From positions 1 to 41,208 of IMG/VR virus record IMGVR_UViG_3300025079_000007: DNA of 41,208 nt. One strand, written 5' to 3'. Positions within the stretch are counted from its first letter, which is position 1. The number at the start of each line of letters is the position of its first letter. This document shows positions 1-15,597 of the stretch, piece by piece. This DNA is from a virus. The notes below the pieces were generated by a model. The model had not been told where the DNA came from. It searched no databases and worked only from the letters and a program-made list of their open reading frames with translations. Position numbers and translations under genes: made by a program.

Positions 1-3000
1 CCTCTGATAGTCTCTAATTCATTTACAAATTTTTCTTTTCCATCAACTACAGATCTTGCTTGGTCTTGATTATTATAAACGTCTCTTTCCATAGTAACCT
101 CAACTAAAGGTTTCTGGTATTGGCTTACACCATCAATATCTTTTATAGTAATTGCTTTCCTTGGTATATTAATAAATGTACCACCATATCCTTTAGTTAA
201 GAATGTAACTCCAGAGGCATCGTCTTTATATACTCTTTGCTTCTCTATTTTAAATGTAACCTTCTGTGCTTTTTCTTTTATTGGTGCACCCTCTACATTA
301 ATATCTTTAGGAACCTTAGCAACATACTGTCCACCCATTGCAGAACGAGCAGCTACAGGTTTCGTTCTTTTACCTAAAAGAGTTTGATTACCAGAAACTG
401 GTTTTGCTTTTGGATAAACCTTTCTAACATCTACTGCATTATTAAATACCATCATAGGTTTACCAGGCAATGCCCATGGGTATGCTGGATGATATCCAGG
501 ATCACCTTCATTTAATTTAAAAGGTTTACCATCTTGGTCAAACTCTATGGCTGAAATTATATCTCCATATTGAATTTTCTTAAGAGATGGATCATTAACT
601 ACACTCTCTATATCCCCATCAATAGTTTTTTTCGCTTCAAAAGGATAGATGCCAAACTTATTATATGACTCTGCACTCATAAATTTTCTTGCAAACTGAC
701 CTCTTACTTCAAAATTTGTAGTTTTAAATAAATCTTGTATCTCTTGGTAATTTTTAATTTGTGTTGGTAATCCATTCTTTTTTAAATATGTAGTAATTTT
801 ACCATCTCCTCCATCTTTAGTTTTATCAGCAAGTTTTTTATTTATATAATCTACCATTTCTTTTGGTGATGCACCCTTTTCTATTGCATTTTCAATCTCT
901 GCATTTAAGAAATCATAAAATTGTAGATTACCTGTAATACCATCTGAAGCCTGAGACATAACAAGTCCCACACCATCACTTTCTTTAGCTTTATTTAAAA
1001 CTTTATTAGCTGCTGATTCAGCAGAAAATACCCAAACAGCATTACTTCCTTGAGACTCCGAGCCATAAGGATATAGGTATCCTCCGTTAAACATAAACTC
1101 TAAGCCTGATGGGCTTTCTATATTACCATAAGTAGCTTGGTCTGCAGCAAAAACAAAAGCATTCACTCCACTAAGATCGTTAATAGAACCACGTTTTATT
1201 TTACTCATATCAATACCACCCCTATCTTTTTGGTTTTTTTCTGTTACCTCTAAGTCAATAGACGGACCATCATCAGGAATATTTTCAGGCACAGGACCTT
1301 CAGCATCTTCTACTACCTCTCCAGGAATAACTTCTATATCTCCTTCTGTAACTTCAACTCCCTCTCTTACTTTGCCTGATACTGTATTAAAGAACTCAAT
1401 CATATCAGCCTCTTCCTTAGTGAACTCTGTTATGTTAACAGGTAAACCAACAGCTTTAGCTGCTTTCTGTAACCACCTCTTTACTATATTTTTAGTAGGC
1501 CCATCTAACTGCGTATATGCAGCTGAAAGATATCCAAACAACTCTGACACTTGCTCTTCATTCTGGTCATTAATCTTATAATCTTTTGCAAAGTCTTCTA
1601 TAACTTCTTTCAAATTAGAATCTTTAGGCATTGCTTTTGCTACAGCATCTAACATTCGCTTTGTAACTTTACTAAAGTCTGCATTGACTCCTAACTTCTT
1701 TAATAGTACAGCATGCATAACCTCATGAGCTACTGTTCGTGTATTAGCTTTAGAAGAATTAATATGAATGGTATTAGTATTAAGATTAAAAGTACCACGT
1801 GTTCCTGCGTTCTCACTGCTTACTGCTTTATTATAATTATTTTCTGATGCGTGTACTACAATGTCTAAGTCAGGAATTAATTTAACTATAGCCTTACCTG
1901 CATTCTTAGCTTTATTTAATAAACTATCAAAAGAAATATCAACACTATTTTCAGGCTTAGCATTTTTAGGTTGTGTCACATGAACATTATCTGAAACACT
2001 TGTTCCCTCATACACTTCATTTTTACCGTCAGTAACTATAACATCTATAGTTCCATCTTCTTCGTTTTGTACTACAGCTCTACGAGTTGGTTGTTCAGGA
2101 GTTCCTTCTTGCTCCTGCATACCTGTTTGCTCATTAAATATAGATGTTAAATCATCTACTTCCTCTTGCGTCTGCGTGTCAAGATCTGTTTGACTGTCCT
2201 GGCTCTCTTGGGTAGACTGCCCTTGGGTGTTTCCATCTCCCACTTCTTGGCTACTTTCGGTAGATTCTTGTACATCCACTTTCTCTGGGCTTGACTTTTG
2301 AATGGCATCTCTTTTAGTTTTAATTTGTTCAGGAGTTGGGTTCTCTACTCCCTCCTCTTTTAATTCGTTTATTGCCTGTGTATTTAACTCAGTCTCTTGT
2401 GCTTCTTGTTGGTTTTGTGTATTACCAGATCGAACTATTCTTTCTACATCATTCTCTAAATCTAATAACTCTTGTTGTTGTCTTTTAGTTAGTAGCTTAT
2501 TATATTTATCTATATCATCCTGTAGTTCTTGTTGTCTTAAAAGATTACCAAGTAGTTCTTTCTTTTGATTAGTAGGAAGATCCGAAGGTATTTGATCCAT
2601 CACCCCATTTACTTGGTCATACATATCAATTTCAAGCTGTCCCTCTTTCTTAGTTATATCACCATTTAAAATACGCTCTTTAGTTCTTTGAATAAATGCG
2701 TCTCTTACTACAGGCTCCTTATGAACCTGCTCATACATCTCAAAAACACCATCTCCTAAACCAGTGAAATCTCCAGCTGTTGCTGTCTGTATTATAGCTG
2801 ATGGTGTACCAATTACAAATCCTCCCACTGCTTCCTGTAGTCCTGCTCTGATTACTTGCTTTACCCCATCACCAAAAGACTCTGGAGTTCTAAACATTTC
2901 TTTTTCTTTATTATAATTATAAGCTTCTTTAAAACCTATATCTGCAATCTCTTGTGCAAGCCCCGTCTCAAACTCCGCTAATCCAGAAGCTGTAACTAAC

Positions 3001-5108
3001 AGAAGTCCTTGTCCCATAAGGTTGTTAACCTCTTTCTTTACTACTTGTCTAAAGCTTTGCCCTGTAATATCTTTACCACTTTTCTTTAGTGCCAGTAATA
3101 ATATTTTACTTGCTAAACCTTTCTGAGCAATAGCATTTCTAAACCCAAGGTTTTCTAATACCCCTACCACTATACCTAAAGGCACAGTAAACATAGTCTT
3201 CTCAGCTTCACTTATATCTGCAAAGTCAGGATCATTTTCCATCTCCTCATTAATATGGTCTTCTACTTGACTTATCATATTAAATATCCTAACAGGAGCA
3301 GGGCCTAACATAGCTGGGATAGACTCAGTTACTCCTATTAGAGCACCTCCCCAAAAACCTTTTTTAGCTTCTTGAGTAGCCTCCTCAGTAGTCTCCTCCA
3401 TACCTAACCCGTACCTCAATCCTCTACGTGACATTTCTAACATGCCATCTTTACCATCATACTTTGGATCGTTAGCAAATTGAGAGAACGGATTAGCGTA
3501 CACATTTTCTCCAGGCTTTACATCGTACTTTATTTCTTTTCTTAACTCGTCTAATATTTTAGATTCTATATCTTCTAATAAAGTTGTAGTTACTTTTCGA
3601 GTAGAAGCAGATGTACCGTCTTTTATAGATCCTGCTGATTTAATTTCTGTAGTAGTTCCTGGAGTTTTTTCTATTAACTCTAAAAATCTTTCATACTCTT
3701 CATCATTAGAAATAATTTCTTGTATTCTTTCTTCCGTATAAGTGTCTCCTAATAACCCAGCTTCTTTTGCTTTAGTTAACACTTTGGTTCTATACTCATT
3801 CTGAGACATTAAGCCTCCTTCTGCAGGTGCCATATAAGTACCCACATCAATCATCCTATTCATCACTTGAGTTCCTATACGAGCGGAACCATCTAATAAA
3901 GCATTATAAGCAAAACCCCCTATACTACTTTGCTCACTACGCATCTCGTACCATCCGCCTACAACCTCATCTAATTCTTTTCCTTTTACTGCTAAATTCT
4001 TTTTAGATATTGCAATATTTTGAGAGGCTAAAGCTATTTTTTCTGCAAGAACTTTAGGAGTTGTAGCCATTTGCTGCCCGTCAGGACCTTCTACATATAC
4101 CACCTCGTTAGGATCCATGTCAGATAAATTATTTTTATCATAAAAGTTTTTAGCCATTAAGTATTCACTGTACTCATCTCTAAGAACGTTGGTTTCAGTA
4201 GTTAAATCCTTAACCATATTCTCTACATCTTTCTCTCCTTGAATCTTTTGTTGTTTCTTTACATAGCCAGCTTCTAATTGGTGTAACTTAGTGCTCTCTT
4301 CTTTATTATCTTGTAAAAATTGTTTTAACTCATCAGAATATTTGCCCGTAAAAAACAAAGCATCTAATTCTACTTTTAATGTTTCTCCATTAGCGGCAGA
4401 CACTGTCATCTCATCACCTGTAAAATCTGCTTCAGTAAAAGTAAACCCATAGTCATTAAAATGATAGTTCATTAAAGGAACTACATTCTCTTCTGTCTTA
4501 GAAATAAGGTCTGGTGTAATCTGTTGCAGAGACTCATCAAAGAAATCACTTGGCTGCTCAACAACCTCTTCAGTGGTATCTACTTTAAATAATCCTTTGT
4601 AATTAGGATCGCTACGCTCCTCTTGTGTAGACTGAGTTATAAGGCTTTTTAATCCACCCCAACTTTCAGGCTCATAACCTTTAACTGATCGTGGCTTTAT
4701 TAAATCTTCAGGATTTACTTGGTTGCCCTGTCCTATATTTATGGTTTCTTCTTCAGTTTCTTCAACACCAAATTCAGGGGCACCTTCAGTTATCGCACTA
4801 TCAACTTGTTCATTACTTGGCTGAAGAGAAGGCTCCGATGAGCCAGGTTCTTGAATGTCCTCGATACTTGATACCATAACTTCCTCTTCTCCAGTACCAT
4901 TGCCAACGGGATTTTTTTTTTCACCAATACCAAATAAAGTTACAAAGTCATTAACAGTTCCTTTATAACCTGTATTGACAAAGTATTTATATGTATCATT
5001 AACAGCATCTCCATTAGTATTAAGGAGTGTTTTATAATCATCTATAGTACCTTGGTATCCTGTCTCTACAAAATATTTGTACCCGTCATTGATTGCTTTT
5101 TCGTTCAT
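1..5108 (-). CDS. Giant polyvalent virion protein with zinc metallopeptidase motif (3' end outside window)
   Basis: The frame is open from the ATG at 5108 to the left edge, giving at least 1702 residues; the C-terminus is missing. The N-terminus has two tandem repeats of about 27 residues (residues about 5-55, sharing YKYFV.TGY.GT..D). Long helical and Gln/Glu-rich stretches follow, and there are glycine-rich hydrophobic segments around residues 590-760. HEVMH at residues 1128-1132 sits in an AHEVMHAVLLKKLG context, the usual zinc-binding helix of HExxH peptidases. The C-terminal part resembles the mixed alpha/beta large polyvalent-protein domains of phage giants. It is the last gene of the virion block, behind two internal-protein candidates. 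The likely role is a protein packaged in the capsid and ejected with DNA, possibly cutting a host or virion protein. The motif is seen; packaging and substrate are inferred. Confidence 0.75.
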   Translation of the reverse strand, partial: MNEKAINDGYKYFVETGYQGTIDDYKTLLNTNGDAVNDTYKYFVNTGYKGTVNDFVTLFGIGEKKNPVGNGTGEEEVMVSSIEDIQEPGSSEPSLQPSNEQVDSAITEGAPEFGVEETEEETINIGQGNQVNPEDLIKPRSVKGYEPESWGGLKSLITQSTQEERSDPNYKGLFKVDTTEEVVEQPSDFFDESLQQITPDLISKTEENVVPLMNYHFNDYGFTFTEADFTGDEMTVSAANGETLKVELDALFFTGKYSDELKQFLQDNKEESTKLHQLEAGYVKKQQKIQGEKDVENMVKDLTTETNVLRDEYSEYLMAKNFYDKNNLSDMDPNEVVYVEGPDGQQMATTPKVLAEKIALASQNIAISKKNLAVKGKELDEVVGGWYEMRSEQSSIGGFAYNALLDGSARIGTQVMNRMIDVGTYMAPAEGGLMSQNEYRTKVLTKAKEAGLLGDTYTEERIQEIISNDEEYERFLELIEKTPGTTTEIKSAGSIKDGTSASTRKVTTTLLEDIESKILDELRKEIKYDVKPGENVYANPFSQFANDPKYDGKDGMLEMSRRGLRYGLGMEETTEEATQEAKKGFWGGALIGVTESIPAMLGPAPVRIFNMISQVEDHINEEMENDPDFADISEAEKTMFTVPLGIVVGVLENLGFRNAIAQKGLASKILLLALKKSGKDITGQSFRQVVKKEVNNLMGQGLLLVTASGLAEFETGLAQEIADIGFKEAYNYNKEKEMFRTPESFGDGVKQVIRAGLQEAVGGFVIGTPSAIIQTATAGDFTGLGDGVFEMYEQVHKEPVVRDAFIQRTKERILNGDITKKEGQLEIDMYDQVNGVMDQIPSDLPTNQKKELLGNLLRQQELQDDIDKYNKLLTKRQQQELLDLENDVERIVRSGNTQNQQEAQETELNTQAINELKEEGVENPTPEQIKTKRDAIQKSSPEKVDVQESTESSQEVGDGNTQGQSTQESQDSQTDLDTQTQEEVDDLTSIFNEQTGMQEQEGTPEQPTRRAVVQNEEDGTIDVIVTDGKNEVYEGTSVSDNVHVTQPKNAKPENSVDISFDSLLNKAKNAGKAIVKLIPDLDIVVHASENNYNKAVSSENAGTRGTFNLNTNTIHINSSKANTRTVAHEVMHAVLLKKLGVNADFSKVTKRMLDAVAKAMPKDSNLKEVIEDFAKDYKINDQNEEQVSELFGYLSAAYTQLDGPTKNIVKRWLQKAAKAVGLPVNITEFTKEEADMIEFFNTVSGKVREGVEVTEGDIEVIPGEVVEDAEGPVPENIPDDGPSIDLEVTEKNQKDRGGIDMSKIKRGSINDLSGVNAFVFAADQATYGNIESPSGLEFMFNGGYLYPYGSESQGSNAVWVFSAESAANKVLNKAKESDGVGLVMSQASDGITGNLQFYDFLNAEIENAIEKGASPKEMVDYINKKLADKTKDGGDGKITTYLKKNGLPTQIKNYQEIQDLFKTTNFEVRGQFARKFMSAESYNKFGIYPFEAKKTIDGDIESVVNDPSLKKIQYGDIISAIEFDQDGKPFKLNEGDPGYHPAYPWALPGKPMMVFNNAVDVRKVYPKAKPVSGNQTLLGKRTKPVAARSAMGGQYVAKVPKDINVEGAPIKEKAQKVTFKIEKQRVYKDDASGVTFLTKGYGGTFINIPRKAITIKDIDGVSQYQKPLVEVTMERDVYNNQDQARSVVDGKEKFVNELETIR

Positions 5109-5115
5109 ATATTAT

Positions 5116-7149
5116 TTAGTTGTATTTACTCCCAGCTCCTTTAGATGATCCACCACTACCTGTAGTTCCTGAGTTTTGATTATTTACAGCTGTCTCAATA
5201 GAGTCTTGCATAAAGACCACAATATCTTGTACATTATCCCCATCTCCATAAATATCCGACCATATAAACTCTTGTCCTCCAATAGTAAAGACACCGTCAC
5301 CTGCCGCATTAATCTTTAAACTACCACCACCTTCAAGACCACGTGGCATTATCTCATCCATATCCATAAGTTTATTAAACTCTTCTTCTACTTGTGCAGG
5401 CTCATCTGCATAAGAATTTAAAGAGCCACCTAATTCTGTATATAAATAATCACCAGGAGTAACCTCGTCACCATTGGTATTAGTTATATTCATTCTCTTA
5501 TAAACAATCTTATCTTTCACTCCTTCACCTCCAGCTGATGTATTACCCGCACCTCTTGATAGATCGCCATCATAATTTTTCTCTGCAATATCATACTTAG
5601 TAGCTCCCTTTGGAGTAATCTTCTCATAGATTTCTCTCTTAAGTTGCTGACCACTTTTTAGAGTACCATCATCATTATAAGCATCTATAACTCTATCTTG
5701 TTGCCCGTCTACTTTAATAGTAAAGTCTGTGATTTTACCCTCAGTAGCTAATCTGTTTTTCTCTGCTTCTAATTCTTGAGCGGTAGCATTAGGGTTAGCA
5801 TCTTTAAATGTATTTAACTCTACTTCTTGTTGTTCTTCATTTAACAGCTCTACGTTTCTATCAATATTTGTTAATCGTGGAGCATTAGGATTATTTTTAT
5901 TAATATCGTCAATTAAGTTTTGAGCACCAGCATCAGATTCAGCAGCAGTTCCTGACACAACCATGTCTACATTTTTAAGATATACTCCAGCATTTTCTTT
6001 ATCTCCTTTTGATTTTGTCTCTGCAGATGTCTCAGCTCTTTTTTGAACTAAACCTTTTACGTCTTCTTCTTTAGTATAATCTAAAGTTCCTGTTATCTTA
6101 GTCTTCATAGCATCTAAAGCAATCTCTTTTTGGGCATCAGTAAACTGAGCGTTATATTGATTGTCTGCTCCAAACTCCATTACAAGATAAGGGTTGTTCT
6201 CTTCATTACCTTGATGCTCTGCATTCCACTTATCAAATGCCTGCTGGTCTCCTATTTCAAATGCAGTTCCATCCTCAGTTGTTAAGGATGAGTTTAACAT
6301 AAACGACTGCATATCATACGGATCGGCTAACATTGACTGAGCCTCCGCATCTAAATATTTTTGCCCCTCTGTACCATTATAGTATTCTGTTTCCATTCTG
6401 CTTCTTTCCTCTGTTGTAATTTTAGCATTTAAACCATGCTTAGAATCTATTCGTTGTTGTACAACCTTTCCTGATATTGCCTTTGCTCTTTCTAATCCTT
6501 TGTTAGGATCGAAGTTATTTACTTTTTGCTTCATTAAAAGAGTAAGTCTATTCAGTGTAGCACTTGAATTTTTATCAACTGTTCCGTCCTCATTTAATCT
6601 TAACATAGAAACATTACCTGTTTCAGGATCTGTCTGTACTGAGATATTATTCATATTAGCAAACCCTTCTAATTGTTTTGCTAACCATTGTTCTGCTGGA
6701 GCACCTTGAGATAAGTCACTCCCTTCCATATTTTCTTGTAATCTTGTGGTATACTCTTGAAAAGTTTTATCAAAGTTACCCATGTTTTTCTTCAATAAAT
6801 TAAAACCATTTAATTGGTTTTGTTGAAACATAGTAACATCAGCAGGTTTTACTAAACCTCTCTTCATCATGTTCTTCATGTCTAACAACTTGTTAGCTCC
6901 ATCCTGTCCTGCATTCATAACTACCTGTTGTGCGGTAGGGTTATCATATTCTCCTAAATCATTTAACGCAGCCTGTTGGTCTTTGAAAGCTTTTTCCAGT
7001 GCAGCTTTCTTTCCTTCTCTCTCTGTTGCTACATTTTTAAAAGCATCAGATATAACCTTTGCCTCTTCTCCAAAATTAATCTGTGAAGATGGATCCGCTT
7101 TTTGATAAACATCAAAGTCTATTTTTGCTTTAGTAAATTCGTTTGCCAT
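5116..7149 (-). CDS. Putative internal (ejected) virion protein, 677 aa
   Basis: I do not recognise a named family. The protein is almost entirely hydrophilic and predicted helical, rich in Asn, Asp, Gln, Lys and Glu, with coiled-coil-like stretches in the first 250 residues and no signal peptide or membrane span. The C-terminus is Gly/Ser-rich (GTTGSGGSSKGAG). It lies 7 bases upstream of the giant metallopeptidase-motif protein and 18 bases downstream of the alanine-rich 268-residue gene. This matches the place where podoviruses keep their internal core or cargo proteins, after the tail hub genes. The role is inferred from position and composition only. It could also be a tail-tip component. 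Confidence 0.6.
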   Translation of the reverse strand: MANEFTKAKIDFDVYQKADPSSQINFGEEAKVISDAFKNVATEREGKKAALEKAFKDQQAALNDLGEYDNPTAQQVVMNAGQDGANKLLDMKNMMKRGLVKPADVTMFQQNQLNGFNLLKKNMGNFDKTFQEYTTRLQENMEGSDLSQGAPAEQWLAKQLEGFANMNNISVQTDPETGNVSMLRLNEDGTVDKNSSATLNRLTLLMKQKVNNFDPNKGLERAKAISGKVVQQRIDSKHGLNAKITTEERSRMETEYYNGTEGQKYLDAEAQSMLADPYDMQSFMLNSSLTTEDGTAFEIGDQQAFDKWNAEHQGNEENNPYLVMEFGADNQYNAQFTDAQKEIALDAMKTKITGTLDYTKEEDVKGLVQKRAETSAETKSKGDKENAGVYLKNVDMVVSGTAAESDAGAQNLIDDINKNNPNAPRLTNIDRNVELLNEEQQEVELNTFKDANPNATAQELEAEKNRLATEGKITDFTIKVDGQQDRVIDAYNDDGTLKSGQQLKREIYEKITPKGATKYDIAEKNYDGDLSRGAGNTSAGGEGVKDKIVYKRMNITNTNGDEVTPGDYLYTELGGSLNSYADEPAQVEEEFNKLMDMDEIMPRGLEGGGSLKINAAGDGVFTIGGQEFIWSDIYGDGDNVQDIVVFMQDSIETAVNNQNSGTTGSGGSSKGAGSKYN

Positions 7150-10302: not shown

Positions 10303-13300
10303 TTAACACGTTCCTGCTTGTAATACTACTCCGTTAGGTCCAATTTCTACCCATTGTTTTGGAGATAAAGTTGGTGTTACATTAGGATCTATTATATAAA
10401 AACCTGTTGGCGGATATCCATTTGCAGGATTACATGATGTACTTGTAAATATTACATTTCCTACAACTGGTAATCCTCCACTACCTTGGAAGCCCCACGT
10501 ACTGTTAGCTCCAGGTGAATTAACCTCTGTCTGACATACTTGTGAAAAAGTTGAAGTAACAGGACCAAAGTATACTTTATCACAAGGAACCTGACAATTA
10601 CAACAAACCTCATCAGCACTTGATGGATTAGAGCAATAGCATAACTGTCCTGAACTAACTAATCTGAAATCCCAAATTAAATATAAATAACTATTTGTTA
10701 CCGATACATTTACACCAACTTGAATTGCTTGATATTCTCCTGCCGATGGAGACGTGACAGCCCCACTCACGATAGGAGCGGCAGCCACTACTGTTGCTAT
10801 TTCAGCTGAAGTTGGATTATTAGGATTTGCAAAATACTCAGTAGGTGAGGCGAGTATTCTAAATTTATGCATAGAAGGATCAAAATCAAAATTATCAGTT
10901 CCAAACTTTTGAGTTCTCATTGTAACAGAAGATCCAGAATATGGAAACGCTAATAATGACTGTGTGCCTGTAGCAGTCGCATATTCAGCTGGATCAGGTG
11001 TAGATAATGTTGCTGGATTAAATCCTGTAAAAGGACTAATATTAGTTGCGTTAAACCAGTTATAATTAGTATGGATAGTTTGTCCATTATAATTATTAGA
11101 GTTTACAACTATTTGTCTAACCGTTAATGGCAGTCCTTTAGGGCACTTCACTGTAACATCATATGTAGCAGGCACAATAGGAGAAGGTCCTGTTGGTGTT
11201 AATGTTACTGTACACGATTGAGGAGTATTAGATGTTTTTGTAAAGGTTAATAATGTATTACTTGAAGTTGATGCACTTGCAACTATAGCACCATTCCACT
11301 CTATAGATATACTTACAGTACCTGAACTTATATTAATACCTGTAACAACATCACCAATAACCAACCCTAAATCTACATCATAGGTAATTGATTGCGTACT
11401 ATTAAATTGACTAATAGTAGTATCACAAGGAACTTCGTTTAAAGGTGTAGGAACTTGTTGTAAGTTAGTTCCTAATACATACTCTTTCATATAAGGATCA
11501 TAAGCACCTAATTTTTGAGTAGTTAATTGAGCATTAAAACAATCTCTAAACCAACTATTCATTCCATAAGTTGAAACAACTTGTAGTTGATCACTACCCT
11601 GAGATGCTCCTCTTAAGTTTATTACTGCACCTCTTTTAGTGTCTGTAAAAAACATATCATACCCCCAAGCAGTAAAACTCTCAGGATTAAAACTTATACC
11701 ATATTCTTCTATTCTTGCTATTTGACTTCCTAAAACTTGAGGCACTGAAGCTATTGCTCCCCCACCAGTTGAGTCTGTAATAACATTTTTTTGATTTAAC
11801 ACATAAGATATTCTATCTTCTTGTAAACATAATATATCTGTCTCACGAGAATATAAAACTTGAATAGGACCAAACGATGTCTCTAAATCTTTAAAGTTTA
11901 ATAAACCTAAATTAAATTCATTTAAGTTATTACTGTTAGCTGAACTACTATAAACCCCACTATATGTCATTCCTGCAAATCTATCTGCCTCTTGAAAGTC
12001 TTGGTTAGATACTGCTAAAGTTCTTTCTCCTAAATTAAAAGATTTACCTGCTGGACTGTCATATACTCTATAACTTTCTACTCCATTACCAAAAACATAA
12101 CAATTATAGGCATCCAACACTGTTACCATTGAAGCACCTCCTGATGTTTGGTCTTGACTACCAGCTGATAAACTATAAGAGCCAGCACCACCACTTGGAT
12201 CAAAATCTCTTTTAGCCATGTGATATCCTGGGCCCCCAACAAAGTCAGGCTCTATATCTAAAAGTTCAGAAGCATCATAAAATAAATTTGGATCAGCATC
12301 TCCTGGTACAGTTTCAAAAACAAAAACTCCACCTGCTCGTGTTACCTCAATCTCTAAACGAGCTCTTCCTGGGAACCACCCCGAATCACTATAATTCGCT
12401 TCAAAACATTCAGTTATAGCTCCTTGCCATACAAAAAATTGACCACCCGCTGCATTTTGTCTTATACTTGCCTTTACATTATACTCACTACTTGAGCAAG
12501 CAGAACTTGCACTCGTATATAAAGTATTGTCAAATGATAAAGACATTCCCTCTACACCAGAAGTTCCAGAGGTATTAGTACCCATCTTACTTGCTAAATC
12601 ATCTCCTACTGCCCACTGATGGAAAGTATTGTAATCTTGAGATACTGTAAATGTTCTATCGTAGCTTATATTTCTTCTACAATTATTACCCCCTCTATAT
12701 GCAGCAGCTTTTATTCTAACAGAAGAACCAGCAGGGAGATCATAAGGTGTTCCTGCAGAATCATTTAAATTGTAATTATCAATACAAGAGCCACCTATAC
12801 TACCCCCACTCGTATTTTTTACGCTTTTTTGACCTCTAAAATAAGTAGAGTTTGCTATAGTTTCTGTAGTCCATCCTGAAGGTTTAAGCAACATATATAG
12901 CCCTGGTAAAGATACATCTGTAATACCCTTACCTGAATAAGACTGTATAGCTAACACCACCGATTTAGGTGCTCCAAAAACAGCACCTTGTGTATCTTGT
13001 TTTACTATTAACTCATCTCCTACTTTTAATATATTTTGATTTTGCCCATCTAACTTAAACCACACTTGACTTGGATCTTCCACATCGGCTACGGGAAGTC
13101 CCCCTCCAGGATTTTTTGCAGTCCCATCTTGAGCATAAAATAAATTAGAGTAAATAGTCTCGTAAGTCCCCTGACTTGGTTTTACCACAAACTTATATTT
13201 TTTAGCCCAGTAAGGAGCAAGGTTTGATAAGGTTACTCGTATTTGATTTTTTAAAACACAAGAAGATGGTTCAAAGAACACAGTACAATCTTGACTTGTG

Positions 13301-15597
13301 AGAACTGTAGATGCTCTACCTTCTCCATCCATATATACAATTCCTACTTCATAATCTCTATTAGAATGTAAGCTGGCTGCATCAGCATCTTTTAAAAATG
13401 TTGCTGTAGAAGAAAACCCTAAAAAGTTATAATATCTAATTGCATAAGAATATACTCCTGTTGCTGTTGAGTCTGCTTGATAATACTGAATACAAGGAGC
13501 TTGAAGAGAAAAAGTGTCACCTGAAACAGAGTATGCAAACCCATCATTTAAACATATAGGGGTTGTAGGTGGTCCTCCACTTACTATTGTATAGGCTACA
13601 CCACTTGTTGATAGAGTAGCCGCCCCTCCAGTTGCATCTGTTATTAATATAAAATCTTGTCCTACTGCAATTGCTTGAACAGGAACAGTTGCTGTCAATC
13701 CTGTTAAAGTGTCTATTACAATCTCTGTACCACTCACCCCTAAACCTGCTACTGTACTAAAATCAAATCCAGTTTGTGTTAATTGTCCTGCCACACAAAG
13801 AGTTGCAGGAGGAACTAATGGAGGAATTTGTGGATTACATAATGTAGTTCCACTTGTTATAGGCACTGAAGCACAAGGAGTTGGGAAAGGATTTGTATCT
13901 AAAGCTGTAAGACTACAAAGTGTAGCTGGAGCGTTAGGGATACCACCTATACCTCCACTCACCATTACAAGACCTGTAGTTGCTATAGGGTTCTCAGAAG
14001 AAGCGTAAAATTTATCACTTAAGGTTCCTCCTGTTGAACTGTCAGCACAAGGATATAAAGGTTTTACAACATTATTACCAGTATAACCTTGAGCAAGACT
14101 TCCTCCTATTCTATCTTTAAATTCTTGAGAATTTAACATTGTATTTACATCTGCATAACCTCCAGCTGGAACTGTAAAATTCATAGGAATAACAAAAGGA
14201 GAACTTTGTAAAGCAGGCCCACCAGGACAAAAACCTCCAGTCCCATTCGTACATACCGTAGCAGTAGTTTGTTGTAAAGAAAATCCAAAATTTATAATGG
14301 TATCTTGTTCAATAGGACCACCCCCCGCAGGATTAATATCTGATAAATCAAAAGTGATAACCGAATCAGGCTCATTATGAACACCGTCAAAATTATACAC
14401 TCCATTAGAAGTAACAGGATCTGGTAAATCTACACCTGCTATCTCTCCGCTTGTTGCAGTTACATTATAAGAAATAGGAATCTTTGCCCCACCTTCAGTA
14501 TATCTAATATCATATCCGTCAACATAATTACCATACATCAAACGATTACCTTTTATTGTTTGTGCTTTAGCAGTACGAGGAACATTGTCGTATAATCTTA
14601 ATAACTCATCAGAACCTAATGTAGTATAAATTTCACTATTCCCAAACAGAACTGTTTGAAATTCATTATCTCCCCATGTTAACTCTTCTTTGTTATATCT
14701 CTTAATTACATATATAACAGTAGATGTGCTTTGTTTATATAATAAATCTATTTCCTTTACTCGTTTACTTCCCGTAGAAAACCAAATATCAGCACCATTA
14801 AATCTGTTTTTCATTCCTTGATTCCAATAGTTTTGAATACTTAAAGAGAAAGGAGAAGGCTGAAAGGCTGGGTTAGAAAATAAAGAAGTAGCACTGTATT
14901 GTCCATCCTCATATCTATATCTATAACCAAAAGACAGAAAACGAGTTTCCATATAATTTTCCTGGCCTATAATAACTCGAGGCTTTACATAAGGAGCTCC
15001 CAAAGGAGCTACCTGACCTGCAGTAGTATCAAAATCTTCATAACCTGGAGGCTTAACAATAACGCTTACATCCTCCTCTTCTAACACATCATCCACAGCA
15101 CCAGGGCCTGGATATGCATAATCTGATTTTATATTTATAACTCTTGGAGGGTTTAAATCATCAGTAAAAAATAATAAATTTTCAATCTTATTTACTCCTG
15201 TTATTAAATATTTTTTATCAAAATTTAAAACCGAGGTGCTAACTACATGATAAATTAAAGATCCTAAATTAGTATTATAAGAAACAATTAAATCTACAAC
15301 ACCTGTAGTTACGGAGTTGGGATTATTTTCATTATGAACAAACCAATAAAGAGTTTCGTTTATACCATCTTCATATACTCCAATAGTTCTTACATTTCCT
15401 ATTAAAGGTACTCCTTGAAACTCTAATTGAGTTAAAATAGTATTACCTAAAGAATTTTCTACCGCTCCAATCTCAGTGTTTTCAGTAGATCCTAAACGCA
15501 CATTTAAAGCATCAATATACTCTCCTGGTGGAATAAGTCTTTCATCTACAGACTTATTCATTTTACCAGCTATAAAATTTGTTGAAGTTAAAGGCAT
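10303..15597 (-). CDS. Giant tail hub (crAss-like muzzle / stabilization type), 1764 aa
   Basis: The N-terminus has NFIAGKMNKSVDERLIPPGE followed by YIDALNVRLG and AVENSLGN (residues about 7-50). This is the characteristic opening of crAss-like tail stabilization/muzzle proteins, which form beta-propeller-like hubs at the end of the short tail. The first about 400 residues fit such a fold. The remaining about 1300 residues are beta-rich, Thr/Ser/Gly-rich insertions and end in a Cys-rich module (CYCSNPSS, CCNCQVPCD) and PNGVVLQAGTC. It directly follows two ring proteins (1 and 2 base gaps), the same order as in crAss-like phages. Length is at the large end for the family, probably from added surface domains. 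The family call is fairly firm; the roles of the insertions are unknown. Confidence 0.8.
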   Translation of the reverse strand: MPLTSTNFIAGKMNKSVDERLIPPGEYIDALNVRLGSTENTEIGAVENSLGNTILTQLEFQGVPLIGNVRTIGVYEDGINETLYWFVHNENNPNSVTTGVVDLIVSYNTNLGSLIYHVVSTSVLNFDKKYLITGVNKIENLLFFTDDLNPPRVINIKSDYAYPGPGAVDDVLEEEDVSVIVKPPGYEDFDTTAGQVAPLGAPYVKPRVIIGQENYMETRFLSFGYRYRYEDGQYSATSLFSNPAFQPSPFSLSIQNYWNQGMKNRFNGADIWFSTGSKRVKEIDLLYKQSTSTVIYVIKRYNKEELTWGDNEFQTVLFGNSEIYTTLGSDELLRLYDNVPRTAKAQTIKGNRLMYGNYVDGYDIRYTEGGAKIPISYNVTATSGEIAGVDLPDPVTSNGVYNFDGVHNEPDSVITFDLSDINPAGGGPIEQDTIINFGFSLQQTTATVCTNGTGGFCPGGPALQSSPFVIPMNFTVPAGGYADVNTMLNSQEFKDRIGGSLAQGYTGNNVVKPLYPCADSSTGGTLSDKFYASSENPIATTGLVMVSGGIGGIPNAPATLCSLTALDTNPFPTPCASVPITSGTTLCNPQIPPLVPPATLCVAGQLTQTGFDFSTVAGLGVSGTEIVIDTLTGLTATVPVQAIAVGQDFILITDATGGAATLSTSGVAYTIVSGGPPTTPICLNDGFAYSVSGDTFSLQAPCIQYYQADSTATGVYSYAIRYYNFLGFSSTATFLKDADAASLHSNRDYEVGIVYMDGEGRASTVLTSQDCTVFFEPSSCVLKNQIRVTLSNLAPYWAKKYKFVVKPSQGTYETIYSNLFYAQDGTAKNPGGGLPVADVEDPSQVWFKLDGQNQNILKVGDELIVKQDTQGAVFGAPKSVVLAIQSYSGKGITDVSLPGLYMLLKPSGWTTETIANSTYFRGQKSVKNTSGGSIGGSCIDNYNLNDSAGTPYDLPAGSSVRIKAAAYRGGNNCRRNISYDRTFTVSQDYNTFHQWAVGDDLASKMGTNTSGTSGVEGMSLSFDNTLYTSASSACSSSEYNVKASIRQNAAGGQFFVWQGAITECFEANYSDSGWFPGRARLEIEVTRAGGVFVFETVPGDADPNLFYDASELLDIEPDFVGGPGYHMAKRDFDPSGGAGSYSLSAGSQDQTSGGASMVTVLDAYNCYVFGNGVESYRVYDSPAGKSFNLGERTLAVSNQDFQEADRFAGMTYSGVYSSSANSNNLNEFNLGLLNFKDLETSFGPIQVLYSRETDILCLQEDRISYVLNQKNVITDSTGGGAIASVPQVLGSQIARIEEYGISFNPESFTAWGYDMFFTDTKRGAVINLRGASQGSDQLQVVSTYGMNSWFRDCFNAQLTTQKLGAYDPYMKEYVLGTNLQQVPTPLNEVPCDTTISQFNSTQSITYDVDLGLVIGDVVTGINISSGTVSISIEWNGAIVASASTSSNTLLTFTKTSNTPQSCTVTLTPTGPSPIVPATYDVTVKCPKGLPLTVRQIVVNSNNYNGQTIHTNYNWFNATNISPFTGFNPATLSTPDPAEYATATGTQSLLAFPYSGSSVTMRTQKFGTDNFDFDPSMHKFRILASPTEYFANPNNPTSAEIATVVAAAPIVSGAVTSPSAGEYQAIQVGVNVSVTNSYLYLIWDFRLVSSGQLCYCSNPSSADEVCCNCQVPCDKVYFGPVTSTFSQVCQTEVNSPGANSTWGFQGSGGLPVVGNVIFTSTSCNPANGYPPTGFYIIDPNVTPTLSPKQWVEIGPNGVVLQAGTC

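Follow-up and report, generated by a model that had tools for sequence, protein, structure and literature searches.

Polyvalent proteins, their zincin-like MPTases and the idea that such proteins process themselves were described by Iyer et al. 2017 (PMC5512222). The core of these MPTases consists of an N-terminal helix, three strands, a helix with the HEXXH motif and a helix with a glutamate (PMC5512222). The locus analysed here lies in a stretch of 41,208 nt, called the window throughout, and comprises an open reading frame with a conserved peptidase signature, a modular build and short separators at defined positions.

The window is an entire IMG/VR record, and the gene of the giant protein (3..5108; all features given in this form are on the minus strand) therefore runs off the contig: it begins with ATG, encodes residues 1–1702 and loses its 3' end at the contig end. 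For comparison, eight IMG/VR relatives of the window were taken. The protein of one of them, L002, is identical to that of the window over residues 1–1643 and reaches 2118 aa, and the giants of L003 (3224 aa), L006 (3210 aa), L007 (2816 aa) and L008 (2843 aa) are complete, so that the missing 3' part could be obtained from these relatives. The open 3' end of the frame and the greater length of these proteins bear out the view of the earlier note that the gene continues past the window. The lengths of homologous giants range from 2816 to 3694 aa. Searches of the whole giant protein against Pfam, PHROGs and PDB gave no significant match.

The muzzle protein of crassvirus type (10303..15597; PF25731, E = 6e-10; phrog_14478, E = 1e-204) places the phage. 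Based on the neighbouring genes, which encode the muzzle (PF25731, PF25729), portal, large terminase and GroEL, it is a podovirus of the crassvirus-muzzle type and a relative of Elemovirus. The gene order is common to the window, the Flavobacterium Elemovirus and the spring-water phage MW202828, and the giant protein also ends the virion block in the latter two (3694 aa and 3859 aa, respectively). The adjoining virion-block protein of 677 aa (5116..7149) weakly matched its MW202828 counterpart (E = 5e-8), and residues 1–242 of the giant are conserved in the MW202828 giant (28% identity, E = 3e-16). The gene at the giant's place is annotated as a structural protein in Elemovirus (gp18) and in Cellulophaga phages. 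The synteny with both, as well as the position shared with N4 vRNAP, agrees with the proposal that the last gene of the virion block encodes a candidate for injection, and the giant protein is probably a virion component that is ejected together with the DNA. This position and synteny also agree with the encoding of polyvalent proteins together with virion genes. Inside the virion block there is also a small GNAT-like gene (window:7976-8386, phrog_17252), and a MW202828 gene at a similar place is annotated as an N-terminal acetyltransferase subunit. The GroEL of the phage is encoded at window:36789-38372 (phrog_5725); Elemovirus likewise encodes GroEL, plus GroES.

The N-terminal part begins with two repeats of about 30 aa each and of the YKYFVxTGYxGTxxD type (residues 5–34 and 35–63; 4920..5096), apparent from the sequence and identical by eye at 16 of 26 positions, as had been described before. 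The membrane-active-looking segments that were also claimed received moderate support: at a Kyte–Doolittle window threshold of 1.3, a single segment exceeded the limit (residues 638–656, 1.53), surrounded by Gly-rich stretches (585–770). The putative membrane-active region is thus the Gly-rich, weakly hydrophobic and strongly conserved part at residues 585–656 (3141..3356).

The zincin-type metallopeptidase domain occupies residues 1040–1262 (1323..1991), as indicated by an alignment of 63 sequences, an AlphaFold model and BFVD matches. A second scan yielded 69 loci with the peptidase domain, and 63 domains, 28–97% identical to that of the window, were aligned. Positions G66, N78, H89, E90, H93, A94, Y138, E145 and E146 (domain numbering) are invariant in all 63 domains, and E150 is nearly so; H89, E90, H93, E145, E146 and E150 correspond to H1128, E1129, H1132, E1184, E1185 and E1189 of the protein. 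The first three belong to the catalytic motif HEVMH, found in the helix AHEVMHA at residues 1128–1132 (1713..1727), where the earlier note had placed it, and the last three to a second helix (1542..1559; alignment and AlphaFold), one glutamate of which is the candidate third zinc ligand. The domain of the window thus shows the HEXXH motif and the glutamate in the second helix that characterise zincin-like MPTases, and since both the motif and the downstream Glu pair are invariant across such divergent domains, HEXXH is more than a chance occurrence. The AlphaFold model built from nine sequences was too weak (pLDDT 60), and the model from 63 sequences was used instead (pLDDT 79.3, pTM 0.68). 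Its order of elements, H21-35, E43-47, E66-69, E74-78, H86-101 and H145-159, reproduces the N-helix, three strands and two helices of the MPTase core, and it includes the zincin-like helix pair whose absence had been set beforehand as refuting; the Foldseek search of this model against PDB gave no match at E ≤ 0.001, with lethal factor at E = 2.7 and jannalysin at E = 4.3. By sequence, the solved structure that came closest was IrrE (E = 0.011), no Pfam family scored above the cut-off for the domain, and among the BFVD viral models the best matches were the giants themselves, followed more weakly by other phage polyvalent proteins. Independent evidence for the fold is incomplete; likeness to solved zincins would back membership among these MPTases and does not define it. 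The conserved signature and the order of elements support a giant polyvalent protein with a conserved zincin-type peptidase, whose activity is probable.

The giants share one layout: their N-terminal part is conserved, the peptidase lies near residue 1100, and a variable region separates it from a C-terminal region of about 1190 aa, which is again conserved. The relatives can be aligned throughout until about residue 1290, beyond which whole blocks are swapped and neighbouring blocks are nearly identical. At the border between the peptidase and module 1 lies the first separator, EKNQ (residues 1290–1293; 1230..1241), in which E, K and Q are invariant in nine sequences. Module 1 (residues 1294–1611; 276..1229) gives way in L004, L006, L007 and L008 to sequence that is either unrelated or highly divergent; in the window it is followed by the second separator, EKAQ (residues 1612–1615; 264..275), recognised by the comparison of relatives. 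The incomplete start of module 2 (residues 1616–1702; 3..263) continues in L002 up to EKAQ 1711, after which EKAQ recurs at 1727, 1932 and 2055. In the clade of the window, EKxQ, mostly as EKAQ, is present at each block edge, and in seven giants 36 of the 37 EK.Q sites lie downstream of HEXXH and ahead of the C-terminal region. The giants of L006, L007 and L008 end in C-terminal tandem repeats of the type xxNDxAIFKxGKK, the variable region of the L062 giant contains about fourteen copies of a repeat of about 20 aa, SQVTDLGNLESIGG (residues 1484–1770), and in L004 an apparent frameshift (L004:17901-17920), a sequencing error or a real break, splits the giant gene into frames of 2641 and 449 aa.

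Several unrelated enzymatic domains in one chain, as expected of a polyvalent protein, were found in the homologous giants, where Pfam named ART-PolyVal, Kinase-PolyVal, GNAT, LPD23 and L5 gp82; in the window's own 1702 residues Pfam named no such effector module. Kinase-PolyVal (1591–1754) is flanked by RQQK at 1498 and 1771 in L035 and ART-PolyVal (1444–1609) by separators at 1437 and 1619 in L059, and within 12 Pfam domains one separator was observed against 5.8 expected. A second motif, HEXQH, occurs in a module named LPD23 in several of the loci L028, L029, L034, L035, L038, L040, L048, L058, L067, L072 and L079; the nine aligned copies all start with RKQI, and the module is possibly a second peptidase-like domain.

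Outside the clade of the window the separators take the form R[KQRM]Q or RxQK. The 990 aa that follow the peptidase contain 49 occurrences of R.QK across 62 giants, where 9.3 were expected; six occur before the peptidase (9.8 expected) and seven further on (7.1 expected), counts that include orthologous and related sites which are not independent, an effect of kinship that clustering by context (26 distinct contexts for R.QK) reduces in part. When about 24,000 three-residue patterns were ranked without bias by their number of distinct contexts, RQQ, R.QK, RKQ and RQ.K were the top four. In general, the data on which the motif was noticed overlap with those used to test it. Per 1000 aa, the combined motif occurred 0.72 times before the peptidase, 0.09 times within it, 3.05 times after it and 0.69 times in the tail. 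Moreover, 25% of the starts of internal BLAST HSPs lay at most 3 aa from a motif, compared with 2% at random, a coincidence of which a part is to be expected, as a module may have the motif as its conserved start. A natural control is provided by two sister phages, the Cellulophaga phages phi13:2 and phi38:1 (L090:24105-30077 and L091:23423-28498), whose giants occupy the same genomic place, lack the MPTase with its HEXXH and contain a single motif in 3681 aa. Long repeats were also considered as separators in other giants, and they were dropped, being mostly N-terminal tandem repeats.

The near confinement of separators to the part C-terminal of the peptidase, at module borders, points to the giant itself as the substrate. 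We therefore do not favour the suggestion of the earlier note that the peptidase may target a host protein of defence or transcription, and propose the following. The N-terminal residues, about 1290 in number, would form the virion part and the zincin peptidase, behind which follow a chain of exchangeable effector modules and, in full-length relatives, the conserved C-terminal region. The virion would store the giant and eject it, as a single chain, along with the DNA, and the zincin would cut its own chain at the separators C-terminal of itself (EKxQ; R[KQRM]Q or RxQK in relatives), freeing small effector modules during maturation or in the host. Both the cleavage and the role of separators as cut sites are inferred from sequence, and to the reading as a whole, an ejected polyvalent protein whose zincin frees effector modules by cutting at separators, we would give even odds. 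A point against self-cleavage is the N4 vRNAP, an analogous giant which, as cited in PMC5512222, is packaged unprocessed. The form of the motif follows that of the peptidase: EKxQ occurs with HEVMH in 7 of 7 giants and RxQ with HExFH in 55 of 55, a covariation that probably represents one evolutionary event. This split fits a protease and a site that changed jointly. More tentatively, there may be a cleavage code, in which the zincin of each lineage reads one border motif, so that cassettes exchange freely without loss of processing, and a change in the motif goes with one in the protease.

The separators could instead be recombination joints, short conserved stretches that serve module swapping and have no role for a protease. 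Cassettes do differ exactly between separators, and L003 corresponds to L002 from which one EKAQ-to-EKAQ unit has been removed, the remaining ends meeting within GAAAAAGCACA; as this loss joins inside the EKAQ codons, recombination has used the separators at least once, which is compatible with protease sites and with joints or linkers alike. However, the 119 sites comprise 82 distinct 12-nt forms, and their Arg codons (AGR and CGN both) and Gln codons are near background, so the motif is conserved at the protein level. Likewise, in the more distant relative L018 all three EK.Q edges read EKNQ, each in a different DNA form, and the first separator keeps E, K and Q in nine sequences while x varies (N, S, P, K or A), with synonymous codon differences and different modules. 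We consider joints without a protease role unlikely.

A rather unlikely explanation is that the separators are structural or binding linkers, such as helix caps or places where a chaperone or packaging factor docks, in a chain that stays uncut. Domain borders would suit a structural linker equally, GroEL is encoded by the phage, and large cargo proteins are thought to be partly unfolded for tail passage (PMC10172136). On the other hand, linkers would not be expected to be confined to the part C-terminal of the peptidase, nor to switch between EKxQ and RxQ in concert with the peptidase motif.

It is improbable that the peptidase, once injected, has a host protein as its substrate, a role considered possible for MPTases (PMC5512222), and that the separator motif is unrelated to it, since a domain that is constant in place and conserved beside variable modules shows the pattern of a processing enzyme and not of an arms-race effector. 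Equally improbable is cutting at the separators by another protease, of phage or host; the motif alone does not name the enzyme, but non-exhaustive scans revealed no maturation protease in the Elemovirus annotation or among the window proteins scanned with Pfam, where the only other peptidase was an M15 endolysin-type protein.

Self-processing by the zincin, if it takes place, might extend beyond these phages. In polyvalent proteins from bacterial genomes, RF[QR] or LFQ often stands ahead of LPD23, and a few proteins repeat the border; DDIRF[RQ] or GETLFQ is repeated at several module edges in L101, L129, L132, L124 and L092. The recurrence of border tripeptides (26 observed, 15.2 expected; mean of the swap control 13.8, maximum 25) is only suggestive of separators in these lineages too. 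If that is true, the RF[QR]/LFQ borders would extend the cleavage code to other elements. The named candidate sites make the self-processing proposal of 2017 testable at the bench, and separators would delimit the released effectors exactly; with giants divided at these borders, the counter-defence modules of uncultured phages could be annotated. In the searchable literature we found no paper naming cleavage sites or separator motifs of polyvalent proteins, although such absence is not proof.

Among the known systems, gp18 of Elemovirus (Flavobacterium phage elemoE_6-9C, NC_055854) is likewise a giant (3694 aa) that closes the virion block. Its peptidase is homologous to that of the window (HEIFH, 30% identity, E = 2e-29), whereas its separators are of the RxQ type (RQQK at 2079, RMQK at 2302) and its N-terminus and modules are barely alignable. 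The N4 virion RNA polymerase, too, is a giant whose gene comes last in the virion block; it is ejected, as the giant of the window probably is, and is reported to contain an MPTase domain. Homology to N4 gp50/vRNAP was rejected, as hhalign gave a probability of 0.5% and there was no profile similarity to the window peptidase. The DxDGD motif, the mark of crass-type polymerases, is absent from the window family. The cargo proteins gp45–gp50 of crAss001 are large and reside in the virion of a phage that also has a muzzle protein, and the structural paper on them mentions no protease or peptidase. With the polyvalent proteins of Iyer et al. 2017 the giant shares the form of a giant multidomain phage protein, the HEXXH zincin with a Glu helix and the ART, kinase, GNAT and LPD modules, and it differs from them in a peptidase above no Pfam cut-off, in an unusually constant layout of peptidase, modules and conserved C-terminal region within the window family, and in separator motifs defined at module borders. 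Self-processing was thus already proposed in 2017, and what is new here is the arrangement of swappable modules after the peptidase with a short repeated border motif.
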